Below, one piece after another: positions 32,483 to 57,141 of a DNA stretch of 64,000 bases. Made by a program: the position numbers and the translations under genes. The stretch covers positions 1-64,000 of IMG/VR virus record IMGVR_UViG_3300031565_014867; one strand, given 5' to 3'. This DNA comes from a virus. How positions within the stretch are numbered: the stretch's first letter is position 1; the number at the start of each line of letters is the position of its first letter. A model generated the notes under the pieces. It did not search any database and was not told the DNA's origin. It was given only the letters and a program-made list of their open reading frames with translations.

Positions 32483-32528
32483 TCTACTAAAGTAAAGTGA
32501 TTTGAAGGGGGGTTTGTTTCAAGAATCT
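32483..32528 (-). promoter_or_regulatory. Late-operon promoter/operator element, copy 1 of 3
   Basis: 46-bp element, read leftward, with GAAACA at its start, a C-run (CCCCCC), an AT-rich block ACTTTACTTTAGTAGA at its end, and about 31 nt to the terminase start. Closely similar copies are at 56943-56988 and 57096-57141. It probably sets late transcription; sigma factor or repressor not identified. Confidence 0.8.
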
Positions 32529-32644
32529 GAAGATTATCGCTGATTCGCGGCGATTCGCGGAGACTCCACGGAGAAGCACGCAAGAAGAGAAACTGCCGCG
32601 TCGGAAGTCCAACGCGGCAGCGCGATGAAGGTGCGAACTACGAG

Positions 32645-33358
32645 CTACGAAGCCCGAAGCAGAACACGGCGGACGGCTGCCCGCGTGAACGGTTTCTTTG
32701 CCGTGGTGCGGTGGCCTTGCTCGTTGAGCCACTCGGCGATCTGTTGGAACGACTCGCCGGACACGCGCCGATCGCGGATCGCCGGCACGAGGAAGTCGTA
32801 GGCTTCTCGTGCTCGCTTGGATCGCTTCTCGGCGGCCACCTGTGTTGCCTTCGCTTGCCCTTTCGCCCGAAGGTGTTCCCGATCCTGCCAATGATCGCAA
32901 CGGGCTGAACCGAGCCGCACGCCACGGGCTTTGGCCGCTTTCAAGGCTGCCTTGGTCCGCGCACTGATGCGTTGGGCTTCGTCTTCGGCGACGGCTGCCA
33001 GGATGTGGATGGTCAGTCGATTGGCGTTTGGGTTGTCGCAGGCGACGAAGTCGACGCCGCTGTTCATCAGCCCGGCTGTAAAATGGACGTTGCGTGCCAG
33101 CCGATCCAACTTGGCAATAACGAGCGTGGCCCCCGAGAGCTTGGCGTGGGCGATCGCCTTGGCCAGTTCGGGTCGATCCGCGCGCTTGCCGGTTTCGACC
33201 TCGGTGTACTCGGCGAGAATCTCGCCATCGTTCCGACTGGCGAAACTCCATACTTCCGCTTGTTGGGCTTCCAGGCCGAGTCCGCTGCGGCCTTGCTTCC
33301 TGGTACTGACCCGGTAGTACGGGATGATCTCCTGTTTGCTCTTCTGTTGCGTTACCAT
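32645..33358 (-). CDS. Serine recombinase (resolvase/invertase size)
   Basis: 237 residues from ATG 33358, chosen for the GAGG site 5 nt upstream (a longer frame starts at TTG). The catalytic domain begins YYRVSTRKQGRSGLG with Ser18; ATLVIAKLDRLAR and VAEDEAQRISARTKAALK continue the family pattern. The C-terminal about 90 residues carry a DNA-binding helix-turn-helix-like part (FQQIAEWLNEQGHRTT). It is smaller than large serine integrases. It may integrate the phage, invert a segment or resolve multimers. It lies between the late promoter and the inserted cassette. Confidence 0.93.
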   Translation of the reverse strand: MVTQQKSKQEIIPYYRVSTRKQGRSGLGLEAQQAEVWSFASRNDGEILAEYTEVETGKRADRPELAKAIAHAKLSGATLVIAKLDRLARNVHFTAGLMNSGVDFVACDNPNANRLTIHILAAVAEDEAQRISARTKAALKAAKARGVRLGSARCDHWQDREHLRAKGQAKATQVAAEKRSKRAREAYDFLVPAIRDRRVSGESFQQIAEWLNEQGHRTTAKKPFTRAAVRRVLLRAS

Positions 33359-33504
33359 TTGTTCCTCGCGATGCGTCGTCAAGATGGTCCGTTTCCTTCA
33401 GCTTGCTCGATCCTCGGCTGAAGTCAAGTCGACATTATCAGGGCGAACGCTCGCTCAGAACTGCGCACCGCCTCACTGGTTCCCGAAGACGAGAGAATTC
33501 GGCG

Positions 33505-33714
33505 ATGACGGAGCAGGACACTGAGTCATGCAGCCAGATTGGGGGGGGCTTGAGGCCGCAAGGTCGCGAGATTGAGGACGGTGGTGAGTGGACCTGGTGG
33601 TCTCGCCCAGACAATGCCGCGGATGTACGAGAGCGCCGGCATCGGTTATCATTTCGGGGTCCAAATGTCGTTGCTTCGTTTCAAGGAATTGCACCCCAGC
33701 TTGGGGGGCCATAG
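33505..33714 (+). CDS. Possible small protein upstream of the cassette
   Basis: 69-residue frame starting MTEQDTESCSQIGGG and ending 18 nt before the GHKL-PRTase gene. Only a weak ribosome site (GAGAG) precedes it. No family recognised; the minus strand also has a frame here. It could be a leader gene or a chance frame. The 33359-33730 stretch otherwise holds only the promoter region of the cassette. Confidence 0.25.
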   Translation: MTEQDTESCSQIGGGLRPQGREIEDGGEWTWWSRPDNAADVRERRHRLSFRGPNVVASFQGIAPQLGGP

Positions 33715-33732
33715 GTTCATGGGCGCATTCCG

Positions 33733-36700
33733 ATGAGTGCCGACACGTTTCCCTTCGAGATCCATTCCAACCTTGAACTGGGTGCCCTTCCTCCGCAATT
33801 GCGGGCGCTTAGCCGGTTCGTCGCCGAACGCTCAGAGACTGCCCACCCTTGGGGAAACCTTCATGTTACCTGGTCCAGTGACTGGTCAGATCTGACCCTT
33901 CTTGCGTACTTCGGGCAAGTGCTGCGACTATGCCAGAGGCGATTCGCCCAGGTCAACCTTCAACTGGATGGCCCGATGGTCAAGAAGATCCCGTTCTTGT
34001 GGAAGTGTGGGTTCTTTGACTGCGTGCGGGCCAACCGCGTCGGGAGCATTCTGGAATGCTTCCCGGATCCTTGGCGCCATCGCCCAGACACCGACCTCGT
34101 CCGCGCCAACTACACGCCTCTCGTCATGTTGGATGTCGCTCCAGTTGGCCAAGGTGACACCAAGCCCCAGTTCAGAGACCGTCAGGTGACCGACTGCATT
34201 AACGATTGGGACGTCGGTCTCCGTTCCACCGCATCTTTTCCTGTGGTGCGCAACGCCGATGCTATCCACTCGCGAGAGTATCTTTACTTGTTATTGTGGG
34301 AACTCCTGAATAATGCATACATCCACTCCGAAACTCATCATGTCACGCTCGCGGGGCAGATATTTTTGTCGCAAGAACACATCGCCGCCTTGAAGAACCT
34401 TGCCGATGATATCAGCAACGATTATCTGCTCCAATCCGCGGGCTCAGTCCCTTCGCTTCTCGACGCGTTGGCAGTGCAGCACAGAATCGAAGTACAACAC
34501 ACCCAGTTGACGGCTCGCCGTACCTGGTTGAAAAACCACAGAGATCGGTCTTTCCTGTTGCTTAGTTGCACCGATTCCGGAATGGGTATCCCGCAATCTC
34601 TGAAAAGGTCGGAGGTCGTCGCAGAGCAAGAAACCGATGGTCACGCGCTGGCGCGTGCCTTCAGTCCGTGGACATCGACGCGACGGAATGATCCTACTTT
34701 GTATGACGTTCACGGGTTGTCGCAGATCCTCCGACTCGTGGAAGAGTACGACGGATATTTGTTCCTGCAAAGTGGTGCCGCGTACCTAGAGTTCACGCGC
34801 ACTACGCCGTTGTCCGATGGACAACGACTCCCCGAAGAGAGGGTCCTAGACGGCTCGCTATTTCAAATCCTTCTACCTCTGAGCGCGGAGCCTGCCAGTC
34901 GGCCGGTTCGCAAGTGGATGGCGCCCGGCCACTCGCCGGGATCCCCGGAGCCCGCCGATCCCGAACACAGAAGTGTCTTCGTGGTCGGCGAACTACGGCG
35001 TGCCGGAATCGACGTTCCCGTACGAGAGGAGGACTGGACGCGAGCGGCCGACGTGGTGATCCGTTGTGCTGATGCGATCACTACCGATCCCCTATTTCTC
35101 GATCTTGTCCGGATGCCACACGATCACCAGTTCCTGAGTTTCCTTTTGCGAAGCGTCCGCCGCACCAGACTCTCGCACGGCGTTGTAGTGGTCAACGCGT
35201 CGCGTGAGTTTCTAGCGATTGCCAAGAACATGCAGAGGATCGATCTGGGTGACATCGCGGATGAACAAGTGAAGAGTTGCGCCGAACTAGATCGAGACTT
35301 GGCCCTGGCACTCAGCCGAGGAGAGATCGGGTGCTTGCCGCTGTTGCTGCCTTTCTTGGCACTCGCTGACGACGGAAGTCCCGCGGGTGTTCTGTGGCTT
35401 GGACTAGGTTGCTACGCACCGACACGGCGACGGGCAGTGGAAATCGCCTTGAACTATCTCCTGGGCTCGGAGGGAGCTGAGTTCAGTTGGAAAGAACTGT
35501 TTGAAATCGCTACTGCCCACGATCCAGTAGAAGGTCTTACCGAACAGGAATTTGGCTTACTCTTTGACGCTATCGTTCGCTGCAATCGGTCATTACTCGC
35601 CCCGGTTGCTGGCGGATGTCGCTCGGTGTTGACATCTTACGATGTGGAGTACGTTTCACTGGCCTCACTCCGAAAGGAAGTGGAAAACCTGATACCGCGG
35701 ATGGAACACCAAAAGGCTCGCGACCAGCAGGACTTCCTCTATAGTCTCGCCTGGCACCCGCCCGAGCGGCGTTTCCGTAAGCGCTACTATCGTACTTGGC
35801 CTGTGCTCGCGGATGAGCACTATCGTCACATCTGCGCGCGATTGCTCGTGCAACAAGCCTATGAGACTCTGGGAGACGTGGTTGCGGCGGCCCGCGCCGT
35901 CGTTTGCGCCACGCCCTCGGCAGGGCTGCTGGGACGAGAGGTCGCTGCGATTCTCGGTACGGCCTTCTACGAAGTCCCGAGCATTTATGAGATCGATCAT
36001 CGGGATTGGATCCCACGGCTCAACGGACCCGCGATTGTGGTCGACGACGTTCTCGACACTGGTACACTTACACAGCAGTTGGTGCAGTACCTACAAAAGG
36101 TCGGGGCACACTGTCCCTGTGTCCTCACACTCCTGGAAAACGCGGAAACAGCGCAAGAAAGGCCCAGCCTGCCCCTCGTTCTGAAGGGGAGTGCCATCGA
36201 CCTCGGTATTCCGACGACGGAAGAAGTGGCAAGGGCTATCGAGTCTCAAGGCTACTTTGAGGTCGATCCGCACACACTCGACCCGCTTCCTCCCAGAACC
36301 TCGGCTCGTGATTCCCTGTCCAGGGAAACGCGCCGGCGCCTCGAAACGCTGGCGCATGAAAAGGCCATCTTCAGCGGGCATATCGTGCATGGAGACCACC
36401 ACTACAACATGTACTTCAGCCTGCGCGATGCTCTCGCGTCACCGACAGCGCGCGATGAAATCCTGACATGGGTGCTCGACGAGATCCGCGCGTTTGCCCG
36501 ACAAGCACAGAAGCAAGGGGCTCACGCGATTACGCTCGTATATCCGTACTACTCGCCCGTCTACAGACTAGTCTCGCGAATACTCGCTCGTTGGTACCAA
36601 GAAGCCGCAGTTGGCGTCGAACTTCGCTGCCTGGTGGCCAAGCCATGCCAATTGAGTGGAACTCGCATCGGGTATCAACTGGCCGATGTAACAAACCGCG

Positions 36701-38541
36701 GGACGCGCGACCTAGAACATGCCGTGTTCTTGGATGACGGCATTGCCTCCGGTGGCACCATGTCGGCGGTCCTGGACGAATTGGTTTCGCGCAACGCACG
36801 CGCCGTCGTGGCTCTAATACTATTTGACCGAATCGGCCTTCAGCCGCGACGCCATCTGCGCAGTATCCGCTCATACCGTACGCCAAACGGCCGCTCCCTG
36901 TCGTTTTCGTTTCGCACTCTTGTTTCGATAAACGTGCGGTCGCACTATGTCAACAACTGCCCTGAGTGCCTGTTGGCTCGGGACATACTCGGACATGCTC
37001 GTTTGCACCCGGGCTTCCTTTCTACTGGAACGGCGACTCTCGAATCTCTCCTGGCGAGGACCATTGTGAGTTCTGAAAGTGTCCATATAGCCTCCCGGCT
37101 CGGGGCTGAGGATGTTCTTTCCGTACTCAGTTTCCGGCACGCGGTTCTCTCGGACATGCCAAGCCCCCAAGAGATCGAAAGGAGCTTGGCTGGCCGTGCA
37201 GGCGCTCCCCGGCTAGAGTGCCTCGCGACCGTGTTGTCCGATCCCAAGCTGTTCCGGCAGATCACGGATCACGAGGCCTGTGAGCGATGGATGACCGAGG
37301 ACATCGCCGACCCATCTGTGGCTCCTGACTTCCGTGCCCGCTTTGTCCTTCACTTGGGCGCATGTGCTGACAGGAGCTTCGCGCGGGGATACGTTACGGA
37401 AGGTCTTCCTCAAGCCTACATTCGTTTGGCTGGCCGGCCGGAAGCCAAGTGTGACGGCTCGCTCAACCGTTACTTCAATGCGCACCCGATCGAATTCCTT
37501 GCGGTGGCGGCGGCCCTCTACTCGCTTGCTGACCGAGTTGGCCGCGACAAAGAGGCACCAGTAGCATGTCTACAAGGATGGAAGACAGCGCTAGGTTCTG
37601 GCTCGGAGATGAATACCGAGGCCAATCTCTATACGTTCCATTTGGAAACCCTATTTGATCCAGAATCTGAACTCCCCGTGAAAGAGGCGGAGCACTTGGT
37701 CGCGAACTTTGCCGGCAGTTTCTCGCACCACGGTGACAGCTTCGCCGTGCGCATGTCGCGTTGCCGATTGGCAGTGAATACCCATCTCGCTGGCGTTGCC
37801 TGCGAGCAGATGCCACCGGAAATGTTCAGCGTTCTAACCGATATGGTCAGACGCACGCAGGACCACTTCAAGGTCTGGCCGTTCGGAAAGGACGAACGAG
37901 ACGAGATAAGGGAGGCTGAGGCGCGATGGCAGGAGGATCGCGATGGCACCATCTTGGCAACGGTCATCAGCCGCCATTTTCTCTCGGAAATGCCTGCCAC
38001 ACGCCCGGCAACAATTGACCGACTCCTCGCCCACCTTGCACCACGCTTGGGTTACATCCTTGGTAAGGCCATCGCCGATTACCGTACCCGCACACGGGCA
38101 CCTGTTAATGTGCATAATGAGTTCGAATCCAACACATCAGAAGACAGCCGCGTACTCGGCACCTCCTTCTATTTGTGGAGGGTGTTGTCGAACCTGCTCG
38201 ATAATGCACAGGAAGCGTGGAACAGGCGCCGCGGAGAGGAGAGCGGCGCCCCGACGCCCGACTTGGCAGTGCGGATACTTGTGCGCCCCGTGCCGCCCCA
38301 CCGGCTCGCCATTGAAGTCCGAGACAACGTCCCCTGCGAAGATCAAGACGTTGAGGGGTTCTTTGTGCCTGGCAGTGCATTGGCCACGCACCGGTCTGAG
38401 ATCGTGAACTGGGGTGGGGCTTTACGGGGAGACAAACTTCCCAACGGTTGGAAACGTATTGTGGTAGAACTGAGAACGCTCGACGTTGAGCGCCCATTGC
38501 AGGACCCTGAAGATGAGAATCCCCAAGCTGCTTCTATGTGA
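33733..38541 (+). CDS. GHKL - phosphoribosyltransferase - phosphoribosyltransferase - GHKL protein
   Basis: 1602 residues. In order: a GHKL ATPase region near residues 185-370 (WELLNNAYIHS as N-box at about 189, CTDSGMGIP as G1 at about 279, then YDVHGLSQILRLVEEYDG); a phosphoribosyltransferase PRPP loop VVDDVLDTGTL near 769; a second PRPP loop FLDDGIASGGT near 998; a CPEC knuckle near 1075; and a C-terminal kinase-like GHKL region (NLLDNAQEAW near 1487, weaker G1 EVRDNVP near 1528). No clear phospho-acceptor His was found. It is co-translated with the receiver-HD protein. In-frame TAG at 33712 fixes the start region. The combination is unfamiliar; a signalling or anti-phage role is inference. 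Confidence 0.85.
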   Translation: MSADTFPFEIHSNLELGALPPQLRALSRFVAERSETAHPWGNLHVTWSSDWSDLTLLAYFGQVLRLCQRRFAQVNLQLDGPMVKKIPFLWKCGFFDCVRANRVGSILECFPDPWRHRPDTDLVRANYTPLVMLDVAPVGQGDTKPQFRDRQVTDCINDWDVGLRSTASFPVVRNADAIHSREYLYLLLWELLNNAYIHSETHHVTLAGQIFLSQEHIAALKNLADDISNDYLLQSAGSVPSLLDALAVQHRIEVQHTQLTARRTWLKNHRDRSFLLLSCTDSGMGIPQSLKRSEVVAEQETDGHALARAFSPWTSTRRNDPTLYDVHGLSQILRLVEEYDGYLFLQSGAAYLEFTRTTPLSDGQRLPEERVLDGSLFQILLPLSAEPASRPVRKWMAPGHSPGSPEPADPEHRSVFVVGELRRAGIDVPVREEDWTRAADVVIRCADAITTDPLFLDLVRMPHDHQFLSFLLRSVRRTRLSHGVVVVNASREFLAIAKNMQRIDLGDIADEQVKSCAELDRDLALALSRGEIGCLPLLLPFLALADDGSPAGVLWLGLGCYAPTRRRAVEIALNYLLGSEGAEFSWKELFEIATAHDPVEGLTEQEFGLLFDAIVRCNRSLLAPVAGGCRSVLTSYDVEYVSLASLRKEVENLIPRMEHQKARDQQDFLYSLAWHPPERRFRKRYYRTWPVLADEHYRHICARLLVQQAYETLGDVVAAARAVVCATPSAGLLGREVAAILGTAFYEVPSIYEIDHRDWIPRLNGPAIVVDDVLDTGTLTQQLVQYLQKVGAHCPCVLTLLENAETAQERPSLPLVLKGSAIDLGIPTTEEVARAIESQGYFEVDPHTLDPLPPRTSARDSLSRETRRRLETLAHEKAIFSGHIVHGDHHYNMYFSLRDALASPTARDEILTWVLDEIRAFARQAQKQGAHAITLVYPYYSPVYRLVSRILARWYQEAAVGVELRCLVAKPCQLSGTRIGYQLADVTNRGTRDLEHAVFLDDGIASGGTMSAVLDELVSRNARAVVALILFDRIGLQPRRHLRSIRSYRTPNGRSLSFSFRTLVSINVRSHYVNNCPECLLARDILGHARLHPGFLSTGTATLESLLARTIVSSESVHIASRLGAEDVLSVLSFRHAVLSDMPSPQEIERSLAGRAGAPRLECLATVLSDPKLFRQITDHEACERWMTEDIADPSVAPDFRARFVLHLGACADRSFARGYVTEGLPQAYIRLAGRPEAKCDGSLNRYFNAHPIEFLAVAAALYSLADRVGRDKEAPVACLQGWKTALGSGSEMNTEANLYTFHLETLFDPESELPVKEAEHLVANFAGSFSHHGDSFAVRMSRCRLAVNTHLAGVACEQMPPEMFSVLTDMVRRTQDHFKVWPFGKDERDEIREAEARWQEDRDGTILATVISRHFLSEMPATRPATIDRLLAHLAPRLGYILGKAIADYRTRTRAPVNVHNEFESNTSEDSRVLGTSFYLWRVLSNLLDNAQEAWNRRRGEESGAPTPDLAVRILVRPVPPHRLAIEVRDNVPCEDQDVEGFFVPGSALATHRSEIVNWGGALRGDKLPNGWKRIVVELRTLDVERPLQDPEDENPQAASM

Positions 38542-40156
38542 GGACGATATCTGGGAACGTGAAAACCTTCCAGGGATCATCGAGTCCTCTTGGAAGGACA
38601 TGTTTGCCGGTGAACAAGTCGAGGTCCACGGTTGCTCCGATGTTGCCCGCGAGGACCGGCCACGTCCCCCGATTATTCCCCTTGACAAAGTCGGACAATA
38701 CGATGCTCTTCTGCTCGATATTTGGTGGGGAAAACCCAGTTCCGGGTCACCTCATGGCGTCGAGATTGCCGAGACAGTACGTCGGCGCTATCCGGAAATG
38801 CCAATTATCGTGTTCTCACGACACGTCTCGCTTGAAGACTTTCAATCTCTGATACCTCACGGCATCGCAGGATATCTGACCAAAACCGATCCCACGGCCC
38901 AAACCTGGTGTGCCGAAATCCACCGCGTCTTGGAAACCACTGGCCGCGAACGTTCCGGTCACCCTCTGTATCAACTCCTCAGGCATCTGCTAGCTGAAAC
39001 CCCCAACGCCTGGTGTCGGAATGAGGTCGACCAAGCTGCCTCTGAAGTCTGGCGTCATGAGAACCCTTATCAGAAATGGGAACAGTTTTGGGGAGTGTGG
39101 GTGCCGTATTTGGGGCAAAAACGCATCAACATCCCCTGCGACGACATCGCTCGGTTCTTTGCCAAGGAAGAACTCCTAACGATCTCTGTAGGCGAAGCCT
39201 TGCGCGGACATCTGGAACATGTCTTGCATGTGTATTTCACCGGGTACATTATAAGCCATGTCGCACCGGGGTTTCGCGATCATGTACTGAACGCCGTTCG
39301 CTATCTTCTAAAGGAAGATTATCGCGAGGACCAGACGGAAGCCTATTGGGACATGTTCCAAGCAAGTTGGCTCGTCGCCGCCACGCTGCACGACGCCGCC
39401 TATCCGCTAGAGATTCTCCCTGACGTCGTGCATGAAGCATCCCAGATTCAAGACATGTTTCCCTTTGCGCAACTCACTCCCACCGTTCCGTCTGTGGCTC
39501 CTTCGGGCGTAGCGTGGAACAGTACGGAGGGGCGAGCGGCACGGGATGCGTTTCGTTTTGTTCTTGACCGCCTCTACGACAATACGAGTGCCCTCCGCTT
39601 TGTGCAAGCGAACGCATTGTTCTCCGACGGGAAGGTACAGCGGTTCAACCATGGTGTCGCTTCTGGCGCATGCTTCATGAAGGAAGCTCAAAAATGGGGT
39701 GACCTTCCCAATTCGCTGCCATTGGTGTTCCTTCAATGGGCCGCCACAGCCATGGCCCTCCATGCCTTGAAACATGCTGCGGAGCCAAACGGCGTGTGCA
39801 TTGCTCTCCAGCGAGATCCTTTGTCGTTCCTGTTGGCTTTGTGTGACGAGTTGCAGGTGTGGAATCGCAGTCGTCCCGATGAGACACCAACGTCATCAGA
39901 TTTCCGTCGCGTCGATTTGCACGCAATGGAATTTGACGGCAACAAGCTCTCTGCCACCATTGAATACGATTTGTTTCCACTGGTTGATACACATCGACAG
40001 AAGAAGGCTGTAAATGCGATCACAAGCCGTCTCAGCAAAGACCAGCGTTTAATGAAGATCTATCTTAAGCCGGAACCACTAGGAGTAGAGATTCTGAGCC
40101 GGATACGGGATCCATTCACCGAACTGCCGCCGATCCTGCTGGGCGATGCTGATTGA
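38513..40156 (+). CDS. Receiver (REC) - HD domain protein
   Basis: 547 residues from ATG 38513, overlapping the previous gene by 29 nt, so translation is probably coupled. Residues 1-130 read as a receiver domain: LLLCEDD (acidic pair at 11-12), YDALLLDIWWG (phospho-acceptor Asp near 69), IIVFSRH and GYLTKTD (Lys near 125). The C-terminal region is HD-like: GFRDHVLNAVRYLL near 252, AATLHDAAYPLE with His293-Asp294, and LLALCDELQVW near 445, a pattern shared by HD phosphohydrolases. An output cutting or hydrolysing nucleotides, switched by phosphorylation, is the natural hypothesis. Confidence 0.82.
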   Translation: MRIPKLLLCEDDIWERENLPGIIESSWKDMFAGEQVEVHGCSDVAREDRPRPPIIPLDKVGQYDALLLDIWWGKPSSGSPHGVEIAETVRRRYPEMPIIVFSRHVSLEDFQSLIPHGIAGYLTKTDPTAQTWCAEIHRVLETTGRERSGHPLYQLLRHLLAETPNAWCRNEVDQAASEVWRHENPYQKWEQFWGVWVPYLGQKRINIPCDDIARFFAKEELLTISVGEALRGHLEHVLHVYFTGYIISHVAPGFRDHVLNAVRYLLKEDYREDQTEAYWDMFQASWLVAATLHDAAYPLEILPDVVHEASQIQDMFPFAQLTPTVPSVAPSGVAWNSTEGRAARDAFRFVLDRLYDNTSALRFVQANALFSDGKVQRFNHGVASGACFMKEAQKWGDLPNSLPLVFLQWAATAMALHALKHAAEPNGVCIALQRDPLSFLLALCDELQVWNRSRPDETPTSSDFRRVDLHAMEFDGNKLSATIEYDLFPLVDTHRQKKAVNAITSRLSKDQRLMKIYLKPEPLGVEILSRIRDPFTELPPILLGDAD

Positions 40157-41044: not shown

Positions 41045-41159
41045 GAATGATTACTTCTCTGGTTTGCCCTATTTACTCATATATTTATTGTGTGTGTACA
41101 CAGTATGTAGAAGTGTTTGCATAAAGCGATAATAGGTGAAACTAGAGAAGTAATCATTC
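41045..41159. repeat. 21-bp inverted repeat flanking an AT-rich 73-bp core
   Basis: Arm 1 (41045-41065) starts GAATGATTACTTCTCT; arm 2 (41139-41159) is its reverse complement with one mismatch. The core 41066-41138 is AT-rich in a GC-rich region and holds TGTGTACACA, a 10-bp palindrome. This resembles an origin-like or operator-like site; function not shown. Confidence 0.7.
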
Positions 41160-41314: not shown

Positions 41315-41322
41315 TGCGCATG

Positions 41323-43018: not shown

Positions 43019-43732
43019 TTAGGCTTTCCTTTCCGCAATGTCCCTGATGCAAGTTTCAACGTCGCCGATCCCCAGTTGGTCGACCAGCCAAGCTACTTGT
43101 TCGTCCAAGCCCGCGTTGTCGATCGATGCCGCCAGATTGCCCGCCGCATCGTGTACCATTTCGTCCAGGTCTTCCGGCTGAAGCCCCAGTTTGCTTGCCG
43201 TATCGACAAGCCGCGCAATGTCCTTCTGTAGCCCGTGTCGTTTCTCTTGTTGCTCCACGAATAGCCAAGCATTGAAATACTCGATATTCGTAGCGGTAAC
43301 GAACACGGCCCCGCCCCCGAATTCGCCTACGCGCGGCTTGGAGCAAGTACCCGCGTAGGTGAGTGACCAACACGCATCGGGCCGAAACGCGCGTAGAAAC
43401 TTCTGGACAAGATGCGCCACCCGATCCACGCAACCGTGTTCCTCGGAGTGAATCCACAAGTGTCGGCCCCGGTCTTCGTCGACGCCTTCGGAAAACGAGT
43501 AGCCGAAGCCGACGTCCTCGCCGAAGTCGGGGTCATAATCTTCCATGTCGCGGTATGCGCGGCAGCCGATCCACGTTGCGTCCCCGGTGTCCCCATTGTC
43601 GGGCAACGTGTCTTCCGTGTACTCTGCGCCGTCGATGACGTGGACCAATTCCAGTTGGTTCTGCAGCCAGTCGACTTCCGCGTCGGTCAGATGCGTTAGC
43701 GTTTCCGAGAATTCCAAGTAGTGATCGGCCAT
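43019..43732 (-). CDS. Acidic accessory protein, unknown
   Basis: 237 residues starting MADHYLEFSETLTHLTDAEV. Strongly acidic N-terminal half; contains LWIHSEEHGCVDRVAHLVQKFLR and, later, GGGAVFVTATNIEYFNAW. The phrase order recalls unknown proteins of phages and plasmids. The C-terminus is a helical acidic tail (DNAGLDEQVAWLVDQLG). A leader with CAACGGGAGACAACC precedes it. No catalytic motif was seen. Confidence 0.75.
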   Translation of the reverse strand: MADHYLEFSETLTHLTDAEVDWLQNQLELVHVIDGAEYTEDTLPDNGDTGDATWIGCRAYRDMEDYDPDFGEDVGFGYSFSEGVDEDRGRHLWIHSEEHGCVDRVAHLVQKFLRAFRPDACWSLTYAGTCSKPRVGEFGGGAVFVTATNIEYFNAWLFVEQQEKRHGLQKDIARLVDTASKLGLQPEDLDEMVHDAAGNLAASIDNAGLDEQVAWLVDQLGIGDVETCIRDIAERKA

Positions 43733-43768
43733 TGGGGTTGTCTCCCGTTGTGTTGTGGTTTGTTGTTC

Positions 43769-46195: not shown

Positions 46196-46618
46196 TCAAA
46201 GGGGGCGGCAATGCGGGGGCAAGAGGTTTTCGTCAAGGCAGGCATGGTTGCGGCAATCGGTTCGCCCGCAAGCATCGCAGCGCGTCGCCCCGGCTTCGTT
46301 CCATCGAATCGAAACGTGGTAATGCGCTTCGCCCGTTTCATCGCAGCCGAATTCGGCCGCTACGCTTGGCGTTGTGGGAATTGCCTTCAGCCCCTCTTGC
46401 GCCATGATTCGCGCTTCCATACCTTCCGTATCCCACCCGTCCGTTGCGACTTGCTCTAGGCAATCGTCGATAGCTTCGGCCGGGTTGTCGCCGATGCCCG
46501 TTGCGACATTGGCGAACCGTGTAAAGGCAACCCCGCAACCCTGGAAGTATTGGGAATGCTCTATCCCGTGGTCGATCAATTCAAACTCGCCGATACGCTT
46601 TGCCGTGTTGCTGGCCAT
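46196..46618 (-). CDS. Accessory protein with C-terminal CDACGRTDC motif
   Basis: 140 residues starting MASNTAKRIGEFELIDHGIE. Residues 19-70 resemble small phage proteins of unknown role (HSQYFQGCGVAFTRFANVA). The C-terminus holds RCDACGRTDCRNHACLDE, which may bind zinc. It follows the duplicated leader at 46672-46837, so it begins a transcription unit or a promoted sub-operon. Confidence 0.72.
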   Translation of the reverse strand: MASNTAKRIGEFELIDHGIEHSQYFQGCGVAFTRFANVATGIGDNPAEAIDDCLEQVATDGWDTEGMEARIMAQEGLKAIPTTPSVAAEFGCDETGEAHYHVSIRWNEAGATRCDACGRTDCRNHACLDENLLPPHCRPL

Positions 46619-46671
46619 GTTCGTTGTCTCCCGTTGCGTTGTGGTTCGTTGTGGTTTCGTCGGCCGGGTAT

Positions 46672-47471: not shown

Positions 47472-47574
47472 TGTAGTTTGCGTAAGCGCCTGAAGGGGTC
47501 CAAGCGCGAATGGAGCGCCGCCTTGGGGCGGTCCGTTATGACCCTCCCCTTACGGCCGCAAGCGCGAAGCGCCG
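47472..47574 (-). repeat. Structured intergenic element, copy 1
   Basis: About 100 nt, similar to 51967-52060. On the minus strand it holds GGGGAGGGTC...GACCGCCCC, a stem with loop ATAACG and one mismatch, followed by runs of GCGCTT. It lies right after the stop of 47595-47963. A small RNA or terminator/processing site is possible. No gene is seen in 47297-47594. Confidence 0.6.
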
Positions 47575-49457: not shown

Positions 49458-49477
49458 GGTTGTTATGCTCCTGTTGA

Positions 49478-50122
49478 TTAGTATTCACTCTGACAATGCG
49501 CTTCTCTCACTTCCTCGATCGCGTCGTCCGCCATCACACTTGTCAACTCGTTTACTGGCATCCCGCCATTACCCTCTTGCGGAAGAAAGCCCTCACGAAA
49601 AGGCGTGTCGAGAATTCGGTCAATCTCGGGCACGCCAAAGTAGCTCACGTCCTCTGTCTGTGTGTCTCCCTCTCGAATCGCCTCCCATAGCTCCTCGTCT
49701 TCGGTGTCTGTGAGTTCGCGGCTTGTCTCCCATTGGCTTCCGAGAAAGTGAAGCTCATAAGTGGCCTCGAAGCTACAAAGGTGGAAGTGTTGGCGACGAT
49801 CAAACACGTAGACACCATACAGCCGACTCGTGCGTTCCAAGATCATTGGATCAACCCAATGTTCCCGTTCGTCGAGTTTGACAATCCACAAGTCGGGGAG
49901 AAGTTCTACGCGCTCGTTTTCTTCCAAGCCCTCATGCCTCCCGTAGCGACGATAGATACGGGGCTCCCGGTTGTTCTCCCATTCGTCTTGCGTGTAAAGC
50001 CAACCGCTGTTGTTCTCGCTGTCGAGGTGAAGCAATGTCCGGTTATCTTCAGCAATGAGAACAGCGGTAGGTTTGAAAGGTGCCCTTGAGTCGCTCATGG
50101 TTTGTTCCAGTTGTGTCGTCAT
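49478..50122 (-). CDS. Accessory protein, unknown (MTTQL family)
   Basis: 214 residues starting MTTQLEQTMSDSRAPFKPTA, with GGGAG before the ATG. Acidic; contains WVDPMILERTSRLYGVYVFD and FREGFLPQEGNGGMPVNE. Only the first seven residues resemble the neighbouring gene. No family recognised. Confidence 0.7.
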   Translation of the reverse strand: MTTQLEQTMSDSRAPFKPTAVLIAEDNRTLLHLDSENNSGWLYTQDEWENNREPRIYRRYGRHEGLEENERVELLPDLWIVKLDEREHWVDPMILERTSRLYGVYVFDRRQHFHLCSFEATYELHFLGSQWETSRELTDTEDEELWEAIREGDTQTEDVSYFGVPEIDRILDTPFREGFLPQEGNGGMPVNELTSVMADDAIEEVREAHCQSEY

Positions 50123-50126
50123 GGTG

Positions 50127-50498
50127 CTATGCTCCCACTTTCAGGTCATAGTCGCGGTAGTAGTCAGCCCACAATTCGGCCACTTCCCCGCCTTCTCGAA
50201 TCGCTTCACACACATACTCGACGCCATCGGTGGTCAACTCGTTTTCGAGCCAAGCGCCGACTTTGTGGCTGTCGTCGAATTCAATGGCGTTGACACACTG
50301 CGGCCCCGCCCCGCAATGTTGCGGGCAATCGGCTTCTCCGCCCCCGTCCGGGTACGGCCCTTTCGGGAATTCCTCGGAATCGTAGCTCCGTTCGTCGTCC
50401 GGATCGGCCGGCGCGAGCCCTTCGCGGGTTATTCGCTCGCGGATTGCTTCCCCGCACTGTTCGCAGTAGATGTCAGCAGCGTAGATGTAGACCAACAT
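50127..50498 (-). CDS. Accessory protein with N-terminal CEQC motif
   Basis: 123 residues starting MLVYIYAADIYCEQCGEAIR. The N-terminal CEQCG pair and later ADCPQHCGAGPQCVN suggest a zinc ribbon. The second half is acidic (VGAWLENELTTDGVEYVCEA). A GGAG site lies before the start. It is similar in style to small phage proteins of unknown function. Confidence 0.72.
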   Translation of the reverse strand: MLVYIYAADIYCEQCGEAIRERITREGLAPADPDDERSYDSEEFPKGPYPDGGGEADCPQHCGAGPQCVNAIEFDDSHKVGAWLENELTTDGVEYVCEAIREGGEVAELWADYYRDYDLKVGA

Positions 50499-50519
50499 GG
50501 CGATTGCTCCTGTTGAACC

Positions 50520-51122
50520 CTATTGAGCGGGGATGAACCGGCCGTGTTCTTCGTCCCAATCCCATCGGTCATAGTCCAGGGGACTGATTCCTTCGGGCGG
50601 GAAGCCGGGGGCGTGATACGTGACGGGGAACGGCATTCCCTTACCGCTGGCGATACCCTCTTGCCCTTCCACGTAGAGGTTGTCGGTGTCGTACCATACG
50701 CCTTGCCCCGACATACTTGGTTGGCCGATGCAGCCGCCTTCAACGAAGTTCCCTTTCAGTGTCAGCCACAATTCGCTCTCGGGAATGCCGAGTCGCCGGG
50801 CAGCTTCTTCGGCCTTGGCGGACATTTCGGCCGTCAGTTCCATCCCGTCGCTTAGGGGCTCGCCGTAGTCGTCACCTTCAACGTCGACGTCGATTGCGAT
50901 GATGCTGCCGTGCTCTTCAGACTCGGCCAGTATGTCGATAGCGTCAGATACGTTGTCGGCTTCGACGATGTAGTGTGGGCCGCCCGTATTGGAGATACAG
51001 ACGGACAGATGCCACGTCTTACCGAACCAGTCGCCGGCGTTGACGACGGGCGCTTCGTAGTCTCTTCCGTCAACAGTCCACTTGGCCGTAACCTTCGGCT
51101 CGCTTGTGTCGTTGCTAGTCAT
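50520..51122 (-). CDS. Accessory protein, unknown
   Basis: 200 residues starting MTSNDTSEPKVTAKWTVDGR. An N-terminal beta-rich region (HLSVCISNTGGPHYIVEADN) and a central helix (MSAKAEEAARRLGIPESELW). Strongly acidic. It follows the second copy of the duplicated leader at 51165-51331, so it heads a transcription unit. No family recognised. Confidence 0.72.
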   Translation of the reverse strand: MTSNDTSEPKVTAKWTVDGRDYEAPVVNAGDWFGKTWHLSVCISNTGGPHYIVEADNVSDAIDILAESEEHGSIIAIDVDVEGDDYGEPLSDGMELTAEMSAKAEEAARRLGIPESELWLTLKGNFVEGGCIGQPSMSGQGVWYDTDNLYVEGQEGIASGKGMPFPVTYHAPGFPPEGISPLDYDRWDWDEEHGRFIPAQ

Positions 51123-51164
51123 GGTTGTTTCTCTTCGATCAAAGTGCGTTGCGTTCGTCTTGTA

Positions 51165-51331
51165 CCTGAAGCATTTCCTTCAGTCGGCCTGAAGTCAAAC
51201 AGGAACCATGCGAAGCAAAACAGCGCGCAAGTGCGCAAGTATTCGGATGCAATTGCTACACACCTAGCCGTGTCCAACGCCATCCCAACCGGACCGGCGC
51301 CGGGCATGTTCGCCCTAACTATGTGCTTAAC
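51165..51331 (-). promoter_or_regulatory. Duplicated leader/promoter region with CTGAAG boxes, copy 2
   Basis: Same order as at 46672-46837: the identical 21-bp block (51311-51331), then a diverged stretch, then TTGACT and the CTGAAG/CTTCAG boxes (51165-51200). The inverted pair here is CTGAAGGAAATGCTTCAG. It stands upstream of the 50520-51122 gene. Confidence 0.6.
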
Positions 51332-51335
51332 CGAT

Positions 51336-51966
51336 GGCGCTGAAGTACGGCATGAAACCATGCCGGTAGCAACACGCGCTTAACCGTATGGTTTCCGCTA
51401 GTGTTCGCATGTCGCAGGCACGTTGCGATCGAGTGACTGCACCATGCCACGCGAACCAGGGGCCCCGATGCCTTCTGTTCACTCATTGCGATACATCCCC
51501 TGCTTGTCGCTCCATGCTGCGTGCGGTTTTTCTTCACGGTTCATTCGTTCTCCGAGCGAGCAGTCTCCTCCCAAGTTCCGTGTTCACGCAGCATCTCGTG
51601 ACGCCAGCGCGAACACAGCAGCTTTCGATACAGTGGATTACTCAACGACAAGGCAGGTGTGTGTGTCTTGGCTCTCAAACGACGGCCATCGACGGGCGAG
51701 TGCGCGGCCGCCGGTGGTCATCGTGGCATTCGGAGCCGAAGCAGCCACGTTCTGTTCCTTCGGAGGCCAGGATTGCGCGCACCGTGAGCGCAACAGGGCA
51801 CCGGTTCGACGGCGACCATGCGACTGCGTGGCGCAGCCAGGTCAACGTCGGGTCAACACGGCAGGAAGATCACAGATGCAAGCGACAAGGATGCAGGTAG
51901 GTGGGCACGATCCATTTGGGCAGTTGCGGTCCGGCCGCCCCTTCGGGTCGATCGTGTTGTGGCAGG
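51336..51966. other. Gene-poor stretch in the early operon
   Basis: About 630 nt without a gene I can support. Frames exist on both strands but lack ribosome sites and look composition-driven. It may contain an unrecognised RNA or promoter for the leader to its left. Confidence 0.4.
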
Positions 51967-52060
51967 TGTAGTTATTCGTAAGCGCCAAATGGGGTCCAAG
52001 CGCGAATCAAGCGCGCCCTCGGGGTGGTCTGTTCTGACCCACCCCGAAGCGCTAAGCGCC
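51967..52060 (-). repeat. Structured intergenic element, copy 2
   Basis: On the minus strand CGGGGTGGGTC and GACCACCCCG pair (one bulge) with loop AGAACA; copy 1 has ATAACG in the same loop. GCGCTT repeats flank it. It lies immediately after the stop of the exonuclease gene at 52080. The stems match in both copies while some bases differ, hinting at selection for structure. Confidence 0.6.
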
Positions 52061-52079
52061 GAGTGGCGGCAGTGTTTCG

Positions 52080-52700
52080 TCAGAACAAGTCCATTGTCAC
52101 CATTGCACGGTACACCGCTGCTTCGGCCAGGGCATCACTCAGCGCATCGTGGGGATTCTCATTGGTGACGCGGAACCTGCGGCAGAGGGAGCCGAGGCCG
52201 ACCTTGTTGAAAGGCAGCTTCTCGCCGGCGAAGGCGGCACGGTCGTTCATCGAGAGAGCTAGCAGGAAAGCATCACGGGCGTGGGAATGGAAGAGCGTCT
52301 GTTTCTCGTCGATGCCCAGCCAGGCCGTGAGAAATGCAGACTCGAAGGCCCAGTTGTGGGCCAGGGGCACCAGCGTCTTGCCGGCCGGCAGATCGAGCCG
52401 CTCCCACCATTCTCGCAGCAGATCGGCCACCTTGCCGGGATGCGGGGCATGGAGGATCAAGTCTTCGAGATTCAGACCGTGGACCTGGGAGGCTTCACGC
52501 TCGGCCCGCTCCGGGTGGAGCGGACGGACGTTGTGATAGAACGGGCGGACGCCATGCAATGGTCGGATGTCGGAATCAAGCGGCACGACGGCGATCTGCA
52601 GAATCTCATGGTAGCCGGGCCGACGCCCGGTCGTTTCAAGATCGACCGACGCCAGCAGGTTGCCGTTGAGCGCAACAAGGCCCGAGTAGATGTTAGGCAT
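52080..52700 (-). CDS. DEDDh-type 3'-5' exonuclease
   Basis: 206 residues from MPNIYSGLVALNGNLLASVD at 52700. Motifs of the DnaQ-like family: SVDLETTG (Asp19, Glu21), AHNWAFESAFL (ExoII-type) and NPHDALSDALAEAAVY (ExoIII with His and Asp). It would trim nucleic acid 3' ends. It overlaps the upstream dNMP kinase by 8 nt. DNA metabolism of the phage is the likely setting. Confidence 0.9.
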   Translation of the reverse strand: MPNIYSGLVALNGNLLASVDLETTGRRPGYHEILQIAVVPLDSDIRPLHGVRPFYHNVRPLHPERAEREASQVHGLNLEDLILHAPHPGKVADLLREWWERLDLPAGKTLVPLAHNWAFESAFLTAWLGIDEKQTLFHSHARDAFLLALSMNDRAAFAGEKLPFNKVGLGSLCRRFRVTNENPHDALSDALAEAAVYRAMVTMDLF

Positions 52701-53364
52701 CAGTGGCAACCTCCACCTTGAGGTTTTCGGCACGGTCCTCTGGAGTCTGCTCGGGCCGGGGGCCACCACCGACCAGCCAGCAGGCGCAGCGGTCGGCCCA
52801 GACGCGAAGCCGACCGATGGATTTGCTGCTGCCGGCGTCGCCGCCGATCACGTAGTCCCATCCGTCGTAGCCCAAAAGCGCCCGGTCGGCGACGTCGGGG
52901 CCGGGACCGTAACCTGGGCGGACGATCTTCACCAGCACACCGCCCGACTTACGGATCGCCTCGGCTTCGTTGGGGAAGCGCACGTCGGGGATGACCAGTA
53001 CGTCGAGGTCGTGCCGGCCTTTCAAGAGGTAGTCCAGCCACGTCGGTTCGTAGACGTTCTCGCGGATCGCCTTGGTTCCCATGTCGATCCAGATTTGTCG
53101 AGGACTCTTGCCGATCTCGGGCAGGACGACTTCGCGGTAGTGTTCGCCATCGCATGTCTCGTAGAACTCCGGCTCGCGCAGTCCTGCCCAACCATAGAGA
53201 TCGTGGCAGACCTGCTTGAGCTTGTACGCGAATGACCGTTTGCCAATAGCGAAATGCGGGTCACGTTCGCGGCACGCCTCGACGAGAAAGTTGGCGAATG
53301 TATCCTTGCCAACGCGTTTGTATGCCCCCAAGCCGATGATAAGCGTTGCTGTTGTTGTGTTCAT
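52693..53364 (-). CDS. Deoxynucleoside monophosphate kinase-like protein
   Basis: 223 residues. The P-loop GLGAYKRVGKDTFANF lies at residues 11-26, as in phage T4 gene 1-type kinases. KLKQVCHDLYGWAGL, PRQIWIDMGTKAIRE and VIPDVRFPNEAEAI follow the family's order. It would phosphorylate dNMPs to feed phage DNA synthesis. The ATG at 53364 overlaps the HNH gene's stop (ATGA). Confidence 0.88.
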   Translation of the reverse strand: MNTTTATLIIGLGAYKRVGKDTFANFLVEACRERDPHFAIGKRSFAYKLKQVCHDLYGWAGLREPEFYETCDGEHYREVVLPEIGKSPRQIWIDMGTKAIRENVYEPTWLDYLLKGRHDLDVLVIPDVRFPNEAEAIRKSGGVLVKIVRPGYGPGPDVADRALLGYDGWDYVIGGDAGSSKSIGRLRVWADRCACWLVGGGPRPEQTPEDRAENLKVEVATDA

Positions 53365-53876
53365 ACCGCAGTCCTCCCAGTAAGATAAGACCAGTTTCTG
53401 CCTTTGAGAATTGCCCCTATGGATGCTTTGCTCACGCCGTACTTGCGGGCGATGTCGATCCAGCGCATCTTGCCTTCGTGGCCCAGTATTTCGAGCACTT
53501 GCTTTTCTGTGAGCTTTGCCAGATGGTGCCGGGTTCCTCTGCACCGGCGACCTTTCTCGTGGCAATCCACCATGTTGTCGTGATGCGTTCCGAGGAACAG
53601 GTGATGGGGATTCATGCACCTTGGGTTGTCGCACGTATGGCAGACAAGCAAGTCACCAGGTTGCTTTCCGTAATGATCGAGGTACGCGATTCGAGTTGCC
53701 GTGAATTGGACATTGTTGATCCACACCAGCGGGTAACCAGAACCACCGATTCGACCTTGCCAAGGCCAACAATCGTGCTTGGGCCCTTTCTTGACTTTGG
53801 CCCACAAGTTGTCCCGCTGTTTCTGCGAAAGACATGGTGGAAGTGGCAGCACGTTGTGCGTTGTTGGTGTGGACAT
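53361..53876 (-). CDS. HNH homing endonuclease
   Basis: 171 residues starting MSTPTTHNVLPLPPCLSQKQ. The HNH core is CHTCDNPRCMNPHHLFLG, preceded by CWPWQGRIGGSGYP, which often precedes HNH in phage enzymes. A C-terminal helix-turn-helix (RWIDIARKYGVSKASIGAIL) probably recognises DNA. It lies between primase and kinase genes and overlaps the latter by ATGA. Likely a selfish insertion. Confidence 0.92.
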   Translation of the reverse strand: MSTPTTHNVLPLPPCLSQKQRDNLWAKVKKGPKHDCWPWQGRIGGSGYPLVWINNVQFTATRIAYLDHYGKQPGDLLVCHTCDNPRCMNPHHLFLGTHHDNMVDCHEKGRRCRGTRHHLAKLTEKQVLEILGHEGKMRWIDIARKYGVSKASIGAILKGRNWSYLTGRTAV

Positions 53877-53979
53877 GAGATTACCTCTTGAACAAGAGTC
53901 AACGTCGCCAAGGTGGGACCGGTGTGCGCCGGTGGACGACAGGGTGAGAAGTGAGTAAAGGAAAGGACCAGAGGAAGAC

Positions 53980-56844
53980 TCAATCGCCTTCAAGCCGCAG
54001 CTTGCCGTCGATGCGGACGTATCGCTTGGCGTCTGCCGGCAACGTCCCTGGCTTCTCCCAGGCGAGGTTGCCGATGAACTTCTTGTTGTCCGTCCCTGCA
54101 CCAACCGGGAATCGCGTGGGCATCGCGCGGGAAGTCTTGATCTTGCCCCATTGATGACAGTCCTCGGCCGGAAGCCACTTATGGAATGCTCCGTGGAACT
54201 CGGCAAGCAGCACCTTCGAGCCGGGGACCTCATGGCAGTGCTCGGCCAGGAACTCCTCCAACGCATTGCGCGAGAACTGCTCGGCCTCTTGCTTGTGTCC
54301 GGTCGCCACGATAGGGATGCGCAGCCGACCCACGACAGGCGGCAGGTGCAGGTCCACTAACGTCCGCATGAAATGCGATGCCTCTTCTTCGAGCTTGCCC
54401 AGCAGAACCTTCTTAGGGATTTCTTCCACCAGGTCTGGAACGTAGATCATCGTGATACGGGTATCGCCGGGAAAGATCGGGCAGGCATCTTGTCGGTTGG
54501 CACACTGTATCCAGTGCGTCGTGTTGGGTTGCGAGTAACTGTCGGTCCGCATCTTGCGAATCGAAATCGTTCTGCCCGTGACCCATTCCTTGATCCGATT
54601 GTGCGCCGAGGCCCCGGCCACGCTGATGTTCTTTTCCTCGACGACGCAGAGCACGGCGTTTGCCAGTTCACCGTTGAAGTCGTTCTTGTTCGTCAAGGAC
54701 CGGTCCGCGAAAACGACTCCCGAAGTCATCAACAGACTGATTGCTTCGTGCAGGATCGACTTGCCGCTGTTCTCCGGGCCAAAGAGAAAGAGGTATGGCA
54801 GCGGCTCGAACGGATCACGCAGCAGGCAGGCGGTCCACGCCAATAGGTAGTCAGCGCCCGACTTGATGTTGGCTCGCTCGGCCCACGGCAGTTTGCGCAA
54901 CGATGGTGTGAGGTCTTGACCGATGTGCTGGAGAATCTTGTCCCAATGCGGATGTTGGGGAACCTGGTCGTCAACCAGTTCGACCGGTTGATACCGATAC
55001 TGGGCCGCTTCAAGGTTCCAGCGCCGATTGCCGGGGTACTCGGGTTGGAACGGCAGGTTGACCAACTCCCATGCTTTCAAGATGGCTCCACCCATGATGA
55101 TGTCGGCCTCGGCCTTCTTGCAGCCGAGGGCCATCAGAGCCGACCTCACGTCATCCTTCGGCTGGCGAATCCAACGGCCGTTCTGCACCCTCCCCATCCA
55201 GCCCGCCCGCTCACCGGCCGGAGTGTAGAGACATCGAAGGGCATTGTCATGCTCCGCAGCATCGAGGTCTTCCTTCCTCTGTTCGGTGTGTACGTTGCAC
55301 ACCCGCTCCCACCAACCACGTCCTTTTGCCCAACCCTCGCCCGGCTTCTGGTCGACTATAGGGTCAGGATCGCCCAAAATCTCCATTTCGACACCGTCGA
55401 GAATTACCAAGACGCGATCGTCGTCGGTCCTCTTGACTTCTGCCCCCTGCTTGCGCCACTTTTCGAGGGGGTCGGCAGCGCGATTCCTTCCAGTTCCATT
55501 ACCCTCTCGGTGCTTTATCAGCACAACGAGTTGACCATTCTTGTTCTTCTTGAGCTTGGCTTCACGGTCCAGCCACTTCTCGTCGAGTTCGATTTTCTGG
55601 CCGAGGGCCTCCGCCGCTTTGAGTGCGTCCCTGGCACGGTCGAACTGAAATGTGCCATCGGACAATTCCGCACCGCCGGCGACCCTTGCTGCCAAGGCCA
55701 GGTCGGGCAGACGATTGAAGTAGCAGCACGTCCACCCCTCGCCATCCTGTTCCCACGTCTCAGCCTCCGCGATGCCGGGCGAAAAGCGAAAGACGCGCCA
55801 CGCGCCGTCGAGCATCGGGAACATGAAGCAGTTCGGCGTGGCCCGGTCGTTACCTTCCGAGATCGTCCTAAAGATACCCCTCAGTCCCAGTTCGCGCCGT
55901 TTGTCGGGGTCATCGATCAAGTTGGCCAGGACCTTTGTGTGAGTTTGCAGCAGGTGGTGGTCGGTGGTCCATACTGTGGAGAACCTGCTCGTGGTCAATT
56001 CGTCGATAAGGGCTTTGTGCTTGTCATCCAGCAGTACGGTGGTGCGTGACGAAGCTAATGCCTCAAACGGGTCGAGATGCTCGTCGGCCACGGCCTGGAC
56101 GCGAACCTTGGCACGACGACGGGTGACGACTTCCACATGGTCTCGCCAATTGGCCGGCAGGTCGGTCACCGACAGTCCCTTCTCGGCGGCTGCGAGCAGT
56201 TCCAATCCCCGGTTTTCCGGGGTCATCTTCCGTGCCCAAATCCAAAGCAGTCCGCCGCAGCAGTCGATCTGGCTGGCAAAGTCGAAACCTGTTTCGTTCG
56301 ACATCATCCCGAGGATCGCCCGCGCCAGTGCGGCGTGCTCCGTATGGTTGTTCGTCGGGATGCCCTCTTCGTCGAAGTAGACATAGAGATGAAGGCCGTT
56401 GCCGCCGGTGCTCCGGCGGGCCTCGACGTAAGGCAGGTCTTCGGCCGCTTTGCGAATCTCGGCGAGTTGCTCGTAGGTCACGCCAATCCCAGCCGCGTGC
56501 CCAGTAATACTGTCGAAGTCGAAGCCCACCCAACGCGATCGCCGGGCTTGCCAGTCCCAGCCCGTGCAGCCGATCGCATCGGCGTGCAGGTCCAACGGCC
56601 ACGTCATTTCATAGTCGCGGAACTCGGGATCAGCGTGGGCGTTCTTCGGAATACGGATGTTCCACCACTCGTCGACACCATCCGTGTACGTGTTTCGTTT
56701 GCCAGTGACCGGCTCGCCCTTGCCGGCGGCCACGTTGATCTGCGTTTCCATTGCCGGCGTCCAGCGGTCCAGCAGATCGGGACCGTTGTGCGAAGCACGC
56801 CGCGCGCGGAAGAACGATCGCAGCGATTCGGTGACCGTGGGCAT
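53980..56844 (-). CDS. Primase-helicase (AEP-like primase plus SF3 helicase)
   Basis: 954 residues from ATG 56844, 5 nt after a GGAGG site. The N-terminal part has AEP-like features: WVGFDFDSITGH near 107 and EARRSTGGNGLHLYVYFD near 145. The C-terminal part is a D5/SF3-like helicase with Walker A LFLFGPENSGKS near 688, followed by VLCVVEEKNISVAG and PGDTRITMIYVPDL. It is predicted to prime and unwind at the phage origin. It heads the leftward early operon, with a 46-bp promoter-like element 98 nt upstream. Confidence 0.92.
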   Translation of the reverse strand: MPTVTESLRSFFRARRASHNGPDLLDRWTPAMETQINVAAGKGEPVTGKRNTYTDGVDEWWNIRIPKNAHADPEFRDYEMTWPLDLHADAIGCTGWDWQARRSRWVGFDFDSITGHAAGIGVTYEQLAEIRKAAEDLPYVEARRSTGGNGLHLYVYFDEEGIPTNNHTEHAALARAILGMMSNETGFDFASQIDCCGGLLWIWARKMTPENRGLELLAAAEKGLSVTDLPANWRDHVEVVTRRRAKVRVQAVADEHLDPFEALASSRTTVLLDDKHKALIDELTTSRFSTVWTTDHHLLQTHTKVLANLIDDPDKRRELGLRGIFRTISEGNDRATPNCFMFPMLDGAWRVFRFSPGIAEAETWEQDGEGWTCCYFNRLPDLALAARVAGGAELSDGTFQFDRARDALKAAEALGQKIELDEKWLDREAKLKKNKNGQLVVLIKHREGNGTGRNRAADPLEKWRKQGAEVKRTDDDRVLVILDGVEMEILGDPDPIVDQKPGEGWAKGRGWWERVCNVHTEQRKEDLDAAEHDNALRCLYTPAGERAGWMGRVQNGRWIRQPKDDVRSALMALGCKKAEADIIMGGAILKAWELVNLPFQPEYPGNRRWNLEAAQYRYQPVELVDDQVPQHPHWDKILQHIGQDLTPSLRKLPWAERANIKSGADYLLAWTACLLRDPFEPLPYLFLFGPENSGKSILHEAISLLMTSGVVFADRSLTNKNDFNGELANAVLCVVEEKNISVAGASAHNRIKEWVTGRTISIRKMRTDSYSQPNTTHWIQCANRQDACPIFPGDTRITMIYVPDLVEEIPKKVLLGKLEEEASHFMRTLVDLHLPPVVGRLRIPIVATGHKQEAEQFSRNALEEFLAEHCHEVPGSKVLLAEFHGAFHKWLPAEDCHQWGKIKTSRAMPTRFPVGAGTDNKKFIGNLAWEKPGTLPADAKRYVRIDGKLRLEGD

Positions 56845-56942
56845 AATGCCCTCCACAAGACATGGGGAGTGAGGTGGGGCGGGACGAGGAGCGGGACGAG
56901 GAGCGGGCGTACCTTGCGAACGAAGGCACGACTTCCTAGATG

Positions 56943-56988
56943 TCTACTAAAGTAAAGTAATTCCGAGGGGGGTCTGTTTCGAGAATCT
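56943..56988 (-). promoter_or_regulatory. Promoter/operator element, copy 2 of 3
   Basis: Leftward copy of the 46-bp element, 98 nt from the primase start. Read leftward it has GAAACAGA, the C-run, and ACTTTACTTTAGTAGA. It stands head to head with copy 3 across a 107-nt gap (56989-57095) that holds no gene. Confidence 0.8.
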
Positions 56989-57095
56989 CCAGAATTCTTG
57001 GAATCTCCCGACACCAGTGCGATTACGCCGCGTCAGTGGGCCGTTTATGCGGGCTCGTGCCGCGTCGAATAGCAACGTCTTTGGTGCTTTCTTGT

Positions 57096-57141
57096 AATAT
57101 CTCGAAACAGCCCCCCGTCAAAATCACTTTACTTTAGTAGA
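57096..57141 (+). promoter_or_regulatory. Promoter/operator element, copy 3 of 3
   Basis: Rightward copy, 21 nt before the parB-like ATG. It carries GAAACAGC, C-run, and ends ACTTTACTTTAGTAGA. A -35/-10 reading of GAAACA, 18 nt, TTTACT is possible. Divergent copies 2 and 3 could switch both operons together. Confidence 0.8.

Follow-up and report, generated by a model that had tools for sequence, protein, structure and literature searches.

What reads a short element that recurs at the heads of three operons in a single phage genome? The window analysed here spans 64,000 nucleotides (positions 1 to 64,000) of an 81,782-bp provirus-like IMG/VR record. A preliminary description had placed three copies of an element of about 46 bp ahead of the late, primase and parB operons, and had attributed them to one regulator, a phage sigma factor or a phage RNA polymerase. 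The copies lie exactly where they were claimed:

32483..32528, minus strand: copy 1, putative late promoter (-35-like GAAACA at 32520-32515, -10-like TTTACT at 32496-32491, start-like TAG just downstream)
56943..56988, minus strand: copy 2, putative primase-operon promoter (GAAACA at 56980-56975, TTTACT at 56956-56951)
57096..57141, plus strand: copy 3, putative parB-operon promoter (GAAACA at 57104-57109, TTTACT at 57128-57133)

The boxes were assigned from a conservation profile over 26 phages (see below). Each copy contains the GAAACA, the C6 run and the ACTTTACTTTAGTAGA block that had been described, and the distances of 31, 98 and 21 nt to the start codons are borne out by ATG codons at 32451 (minus), 56844 (minus) and 57163 (plus). 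Gene matches at all three sites agree with the claimed orientation into the late, primase and parB operons. Copies 2 and 3 do diverge, with inverted arms that are 88% complementary over 42 nt. Pairwise identity of the copies is 84-88% (84% over 51 nt for copies 1 and 2), and each copy has 16 nt from GAAACA to ACTTTA. With up to three mismatches allowed, the window contains three instances of the 16-bp block ACTTTACTTTAGTAGA, where 100 shuffles predict 0.02; at up to two mismatches, the whole 81,782-bp record yields the same three sites and no fourth copy. As to dyad symmetry, only a short TACTTTAGTA palindrome was spotted by eye in the window copies.

The genes that follow the copies are listed below.

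31906..32451, minus strand: late-head gene, first after copy 1 (181 aa; N-terminal region with a Cys/His motif; phrog_3678, E 2e-4)
2222..31646, minus strand: late block headed by copy 1 (individual genes in the next five lines)
26439-28142, minus strand: terminase, late block
24632-26428, minus strand: portal, late block
23185-24639, minus strand: head-tail adaptor-like, late block
20817-22229, minus strand: major head, late block
12600-16475, minus strand: tape measure, late block
53980..56844, minus strand: primase-like gene, first after copy 2 (phrog_1156, E 2e-17; Pfam DUF5906)
57163..58062, plus strand: ParB-like gene, first after copy 3 (gene-family matches)

The late block is presumably transcribed as a single unit, and the primase operon extends to about 41.8 kb. 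Several other features were observed around these operons. A serine recombinase gene (32645-33358) lies directly upstream of copy 1. The stretch from 33733 to 40156, which separates the putative late promoter from the primase operon, encodes two large proteins on the opposite strand; one (1602 aa) has matches of phosphoribosyltransferase and HATPase type, the other (547 aa) is response-regulator-like, and the stretch is possibly an accessory or defence module. An inverted repeat of 29 nt (90% complementary, arms 57 nt apart) separates two gene blocks at 41045-41159. Within the primase operon a 40-nt leader is repeated (85%) at 43727-43766 and 46613-46652, just 5' of two genes, and another dispersed repeat occurs at 47481-47549 and 51977-52045. 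The structural genes at 8376-11328 and 23701-24606 contain tandem gene-sized repeats (about 1.1 kb) as well as 60-bp and 129-nt repeats.

At its right end the record contains an integrase gene, in addition to the serine recombinase mentioned above, and a tRNA gene:

L004:18065-19783: integrase gene, adjoining tRNA-Pro
L004:19651-19727: tRNA-Pro gene, end of record

This end is likely the attachment site. No word of 14 nt or more in the last 300 nt of the record recurs in the opening 8 kb of the window. The nearest ParB relatives in the genome collection are found in a Pirellulales MAG (80%) and a second Planctomycetota MAG (69%), and judging from this sequence relationship the host is therefore probably a planctomycete.

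Conservation of the element in related phages had been proposed as a check, its absence to count as a refutation, and the outcome is divided: the sequence itself is private and is not kept in most relatives, whereas its position, its two-block anatomy and the agreement between copies are. An exact-pattern scan of viral_contigs gave a single match, by chance, in the coding region of an unrelated phage, and position was therefore used instead of sequence conservation. Relatives were collected through ParB and primase homology; they are uncultivated phages, two of them located in Planctomycetota MAGs. Between primase and parB they have an inverted pair, each phage with its own sequence. The inverted-pair score is at least 15.0 in 50 of the 52 parB upstream regions, against a maximum of 14.0 in 94 null regions. 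The two regions below this maximum are L046 (12.8), where the pair is visible by eye, and G051 (7.6), where the search for a divergent copy, extending 900 nt from parB, found none. Near-duplicate loci do not count among the 52, nor do L051, L060 and L066, the three of the 35 ParB/primase-derived loci in which no pair was found. Absences reported by our first inverted-repeat filter were disregarded, as it overlooked tight palindromic pairs. In the Pirellulales relative both copies carry identical changes relative to the window element, which indicates that the copies change in concert.

The third copy is kept as well. When whole records were scanned with each phage's own element (at most 5 mismatches of 24), exactly one further copy was found in G000, G006, G009, G010, G011, G016, G022, G025 and G027, where simulated sequences predict 0-0.025 per record. 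In all nine it lies 10-58 nt 5' of the late-head gene (31906-32451 or its orthologue), which is the first gene of the late block. The core of the element is present exactly three times in G003 and G026, the late-head site included. The remaining records of this first set yielded neither a late-head orthologue nor a third copy. G011 also has a second late-head paralogue (77166-77849) with its own diverged fourth copy of the element.

An out-of-sample set of 42 loci was fetched by a sigma profile, independently of the element; ParB is present in 22 of the 24 virus records searched from this set. Nine records, eight from viruses and one the MAG G030, have ParB together with a confidently identified late-head gene and served as the test set; in each the copy at the late-head gene matches the copy at parB. 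Six are found automatically by a 22-mer rule with 1-6 mismatches of 22 (G032, G036, G037, G040, G043 and G050). The other three escaped this rule and are weaker cases: G042 and G051 were found through shared words, and the G030 copy was found by eye, with agreement in both boxes but 8 mismatches of 22, a level reached equally well elsewhere in the locus. Altogether the element precedes the late-head gene in 20 of the 20 records where both ParB and late-head genes were located, a count that excludes G052 (partial late-head match, without ParB) and G029 (without late-head gene).

The anatomy of the element was derived by aligning 26 phages on the start-like TAG, with registers set by hand. Within a phage, identity between copies is 0.77-0.92 at -31..-25 and 0.73-1.00 at -15..+5, against 0.31-0.58 in the spacer at -23..-17. 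Between phages, identity at -12..-8 is just 0.28-0.39. Copies of one phage thus agree in a -35-like box and in a block covering the -10 place and the start, with a free spacer in between, and the boxes differ from phage to phage. The most frequent -35 box is GAAA-like, and T is most frequent at either end of the -10 place; TATAAT occupies the -10 place in one phage (G014). Box spacing is about 17-20 nt, a value that depends on the hand-set register. With that register, profile and positions together describe a putative two-box promoter with sigma-type spacing ahead of phage operons.

A candidate reader of such promoters is present in the record, outside the window:

L004:6202-7401 (record 68201-69400), plus strand, the same as parB: sigma-family protein of 399 aa

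The gene lies 11.0 kb downstream of parB, and the C-terminal part of its protein matches the sigma PHROG phrog_351 (E 5e-11), as do 33 of 34 homologues to this PHROG. A profile of nine homologues (A6) matches known sigma structures, the best sigma-F, SigA, RpoS and RpoD chains giving 5e-10 (sigma-F) to 2e-6. Profile A6 and the PHROG matches thereby identify homology to sigma region 2. The C-terminal helix-turn-helix of region 4 is weak by sequence (Pfam Sigma70_r4 in 3/9 and r4_2 in 4/9 members, E up to 1, best 6.6e-5), and its helices are present in an AlphaFold2 model of a homologue (pLDDT 81.7), for which the best Foldseek matches are sigma factors. A divergent second sigma group (G006, G021, G022 and G027) joins by profile (hhalign 98.1%). 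Some weaker candidates were dropped: phrog_351 matches in G025, G027 and G028:23380 are helix-turn-helix motifs of an exonuclease-like gene, a G000 match at 18648 sits in a gene that we take from its sequence to be GIY-YIG-like, and other weak second matches in G003 and G014 were discarded too.

Sigma genes were found in 14 of the 20 first-set records, including 12 of the 12 that are at least 69 kb long. The fragments G004, G008, G018, G020 and G025 (20-67 kb) yielded the element pair and no sigma gene; G005 (51 kb) yielded neither. In 36 of 37 records the sigma gene shares the strand of parB and follows it at a distance of 11-35 kb, the exception being G026, which has a different sigma on the strand opposite to parB. 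Among the 50,697 phage records of the collection no match to the sigma was found.

Element and sigma also diverge together. Given ParB and the papain-like protein encoded next to sigma (see below), the distance between -10 blocks is correlated with the distance between sigma proteins (partial r 0.534, p 0.0003; 26 phages). The papain-like protein shows no such relationship given the others (r -0.015), and for ParB a weak correlation persists (r 0.227, p 0.022). No significant partial correlation is seen for the spacer in the 26 phages, and in the -35 box sigma and ParB are indistinguishable (0.21 and 0.24). A similar picture is obtained from a run on 31 phages without the papain-like protein as third protein, in which the 'downstream' segment falls within the conserved block and hence is no control. 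Divergence of the element therefore tracks that of sigma more than that of ParB or the papain-like protein.

Of the agents named in the preliminary description, a phage sigma factor is best supported: its gene is in the record, the same three-site layout occurs in relatives, and element and sigma co-diverge. We consider it very probable that the element is a sigma-type promoter and that the three sites form the regulon of a phage-encoded sigma factor. The phage's own sigma-70-family protein would bind and reprogram the host core RNA polymerase, and transcription would start at exactly three places, namely the leftward primase operon, the rightward parB operon and the late operon. The parB operon would include the sigma gene, so that one of the three sigma-read promoters would drive sigma itself and make the circuit self-amplifying. 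A first supply of sigma, perhaps from a host-read early promoter, would start it. Because only three sites would depend on the sigma, protein and sites could drift together, each relative ending up with its own signal. The data are as expected if a sigma made by the virus and its recognition signal evolve jointly.

Some observations count against this reading. A sigma gene behind its own promoter requires a first source, and one consensus, searched around copies 2 and 3, gave no host-type promoter there; ParB keeps its weak correlation and equals sigma for the -35 box; and the five fragments with a pair and no sigma gene, together with G005, G051 and G026, depart from the layout. In another reading, the three sites might be host-sigma promoters with a common operator bound by a phage repressor or activator, which would place all three operons under a lysogeny or early regulator. 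Early operons do initially need a host-read promoter, and G014 has its TATAAT at the -10 place. Lysogeny is likely too, given the integrase and tRNA-Pro at the end of the record and one relative that lies within a 444-kb contig of a Planctomycetota MAG. Yet the -10 block varies almost freely among phages, which is unexpected under a shared host sigma, and element divergence is linked more closely to sigma than to either ParB or the papain-like protein. Two boxes about 17-20 nt apart with agreement up to the start describe a promoter geometry rather than a single operator, and a search with one consensus found no host-type promoter in 56850-57180, around copies 2 and 3. We regard this explanation as unlikely.

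Still less probable, in our view, is a binding site for another phage protein (the adjacent ParB-like protein, a second ParB-like protein or the recombinase) with a role in partition, replication or recombination. Two copies flank the start of parB and a weak residual correlation with ParB persists (r 0.23), but the strict orientation into genes at short range, even tens of kb from parB, speaks against it, as does the two-block anatomy. Moreover, the third copy is always 5' of the late-head gene and the link with sigma is stronger. A promoter for a T7-type single-subunit phage RNA polymerase seems the most improbable of all. The block does end in a TATAGG-like sequence in several relatives, e.g. 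CTATAGGG in G026, which we take to be T7-like. Nonetheless, the element consists of two separated boxes with a free spacer instead of one contiguous block of about 20 bp, and it is a sigma gene that is present. RNA_pol (PF00940) was found in 0 of 27 records, a weak argument since control genomes are silent too.

The sigma gene has a nearly constant neighbour. In 44 of 44 sigma loci the end of a papain-like gene abuts the sigma gene or falls shortly ahead of it (e.g. L148:2547-3041), and in this record the two are fused (L004:6202-7401). In the first set the papain-like gene likewise precedes sigma in 12 records, is fused to it in G000 and is absent in G026; the fusion in G000 could be an assembly error, as the near relative L144 has a separate papain-like gene. 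The model of the protein (pLDDT 89.5) retrieves staphopain (E 1.7e-4), PCAT1 (2.9e-4) and the ComA peptidase domain with Foldseek, and C12, H119 and D130 are invariant in 28 rows. In its fold and conserved Cys, His and Asp it is thus like C39 or staphopain-like cysteine peptidases, from which it differs in being free-standing or fused beside a sigma gene. It has no PHROG match and no match among the 50,697 phage records of the collection. Tentatively, and with rather more doubt than belief, we propose a two-protein switch: the papain-like protein, made just before sigma or fused to it, might cleave or hold sigma and thereby time the three promoters, and fast divergence of sigma and sites might have led to mutually exclusive sigma/promoter codes in most sub-lineages. 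The literature searched, which includes few subscription journals, yielded no description of the element, nor of any sigma accompanied by a papain-like protein.

The clade would provide dozens of sigma/promoter pairs that are natural, related and altered in step; they would make a clean data set for joint change of specificity, and would supply candidate orthogonal sigma/promoter pairs for Planctomycetota. They also offer a reading of gene regulation for a phage clade without a close cultured member in the collection searched, and draw attention to a protease-like, so far unstudied companion of a sigma factor.

How does this compare with known systems? T7-type promoters are present in few, highly conserved copies that drive long operons. 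The same is described for promoters of Xp10-type single-subunit RNA polymerases (PMC4331800), and the element is alike in this respect. The two-box anatomy speaks against either type, and no such polymerase was found (0/27, control silent). The sigma gp36 of E. coli phage phiEco32 steers the host polymerase towards middle and late promoters, as proposed here; it lacks region 4, has a helper (gp79) and reads a single-box promoter (tAATGTAtA) (PMC4331800 and PMC8948821), whereas two boxes are found here. Closest in kind is Salmonella phage 7-11, whose sigma SaPh711_gp47 has eight late promoters (PMC8948821). It has a region-4-like C terminus and bipartite promoters (GTAAtg-16-aCTA) at operon heads, and between 7-11 and phiEco32 promoter positions are kept while sequences differ (PMC8948821), all as proposed for our phages. 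Differences from phage 7-11 are that the element shows no resemblance by eye to its promoters, that each genome has three sites rather than eight with replication operons included, that a papain-like gene precedes the sigma gene or is fused with it, and that the hosts differ. Summarizing, a phage-sigma regulon is known in kind from phage 7-11; here a probable example is met in a fast-diverging family, with a papain-like gene almost always ahead of the sigma gene, and what is new is the breadth of one family, the minimal regulon that includes replication operons, and the papain-like partner.
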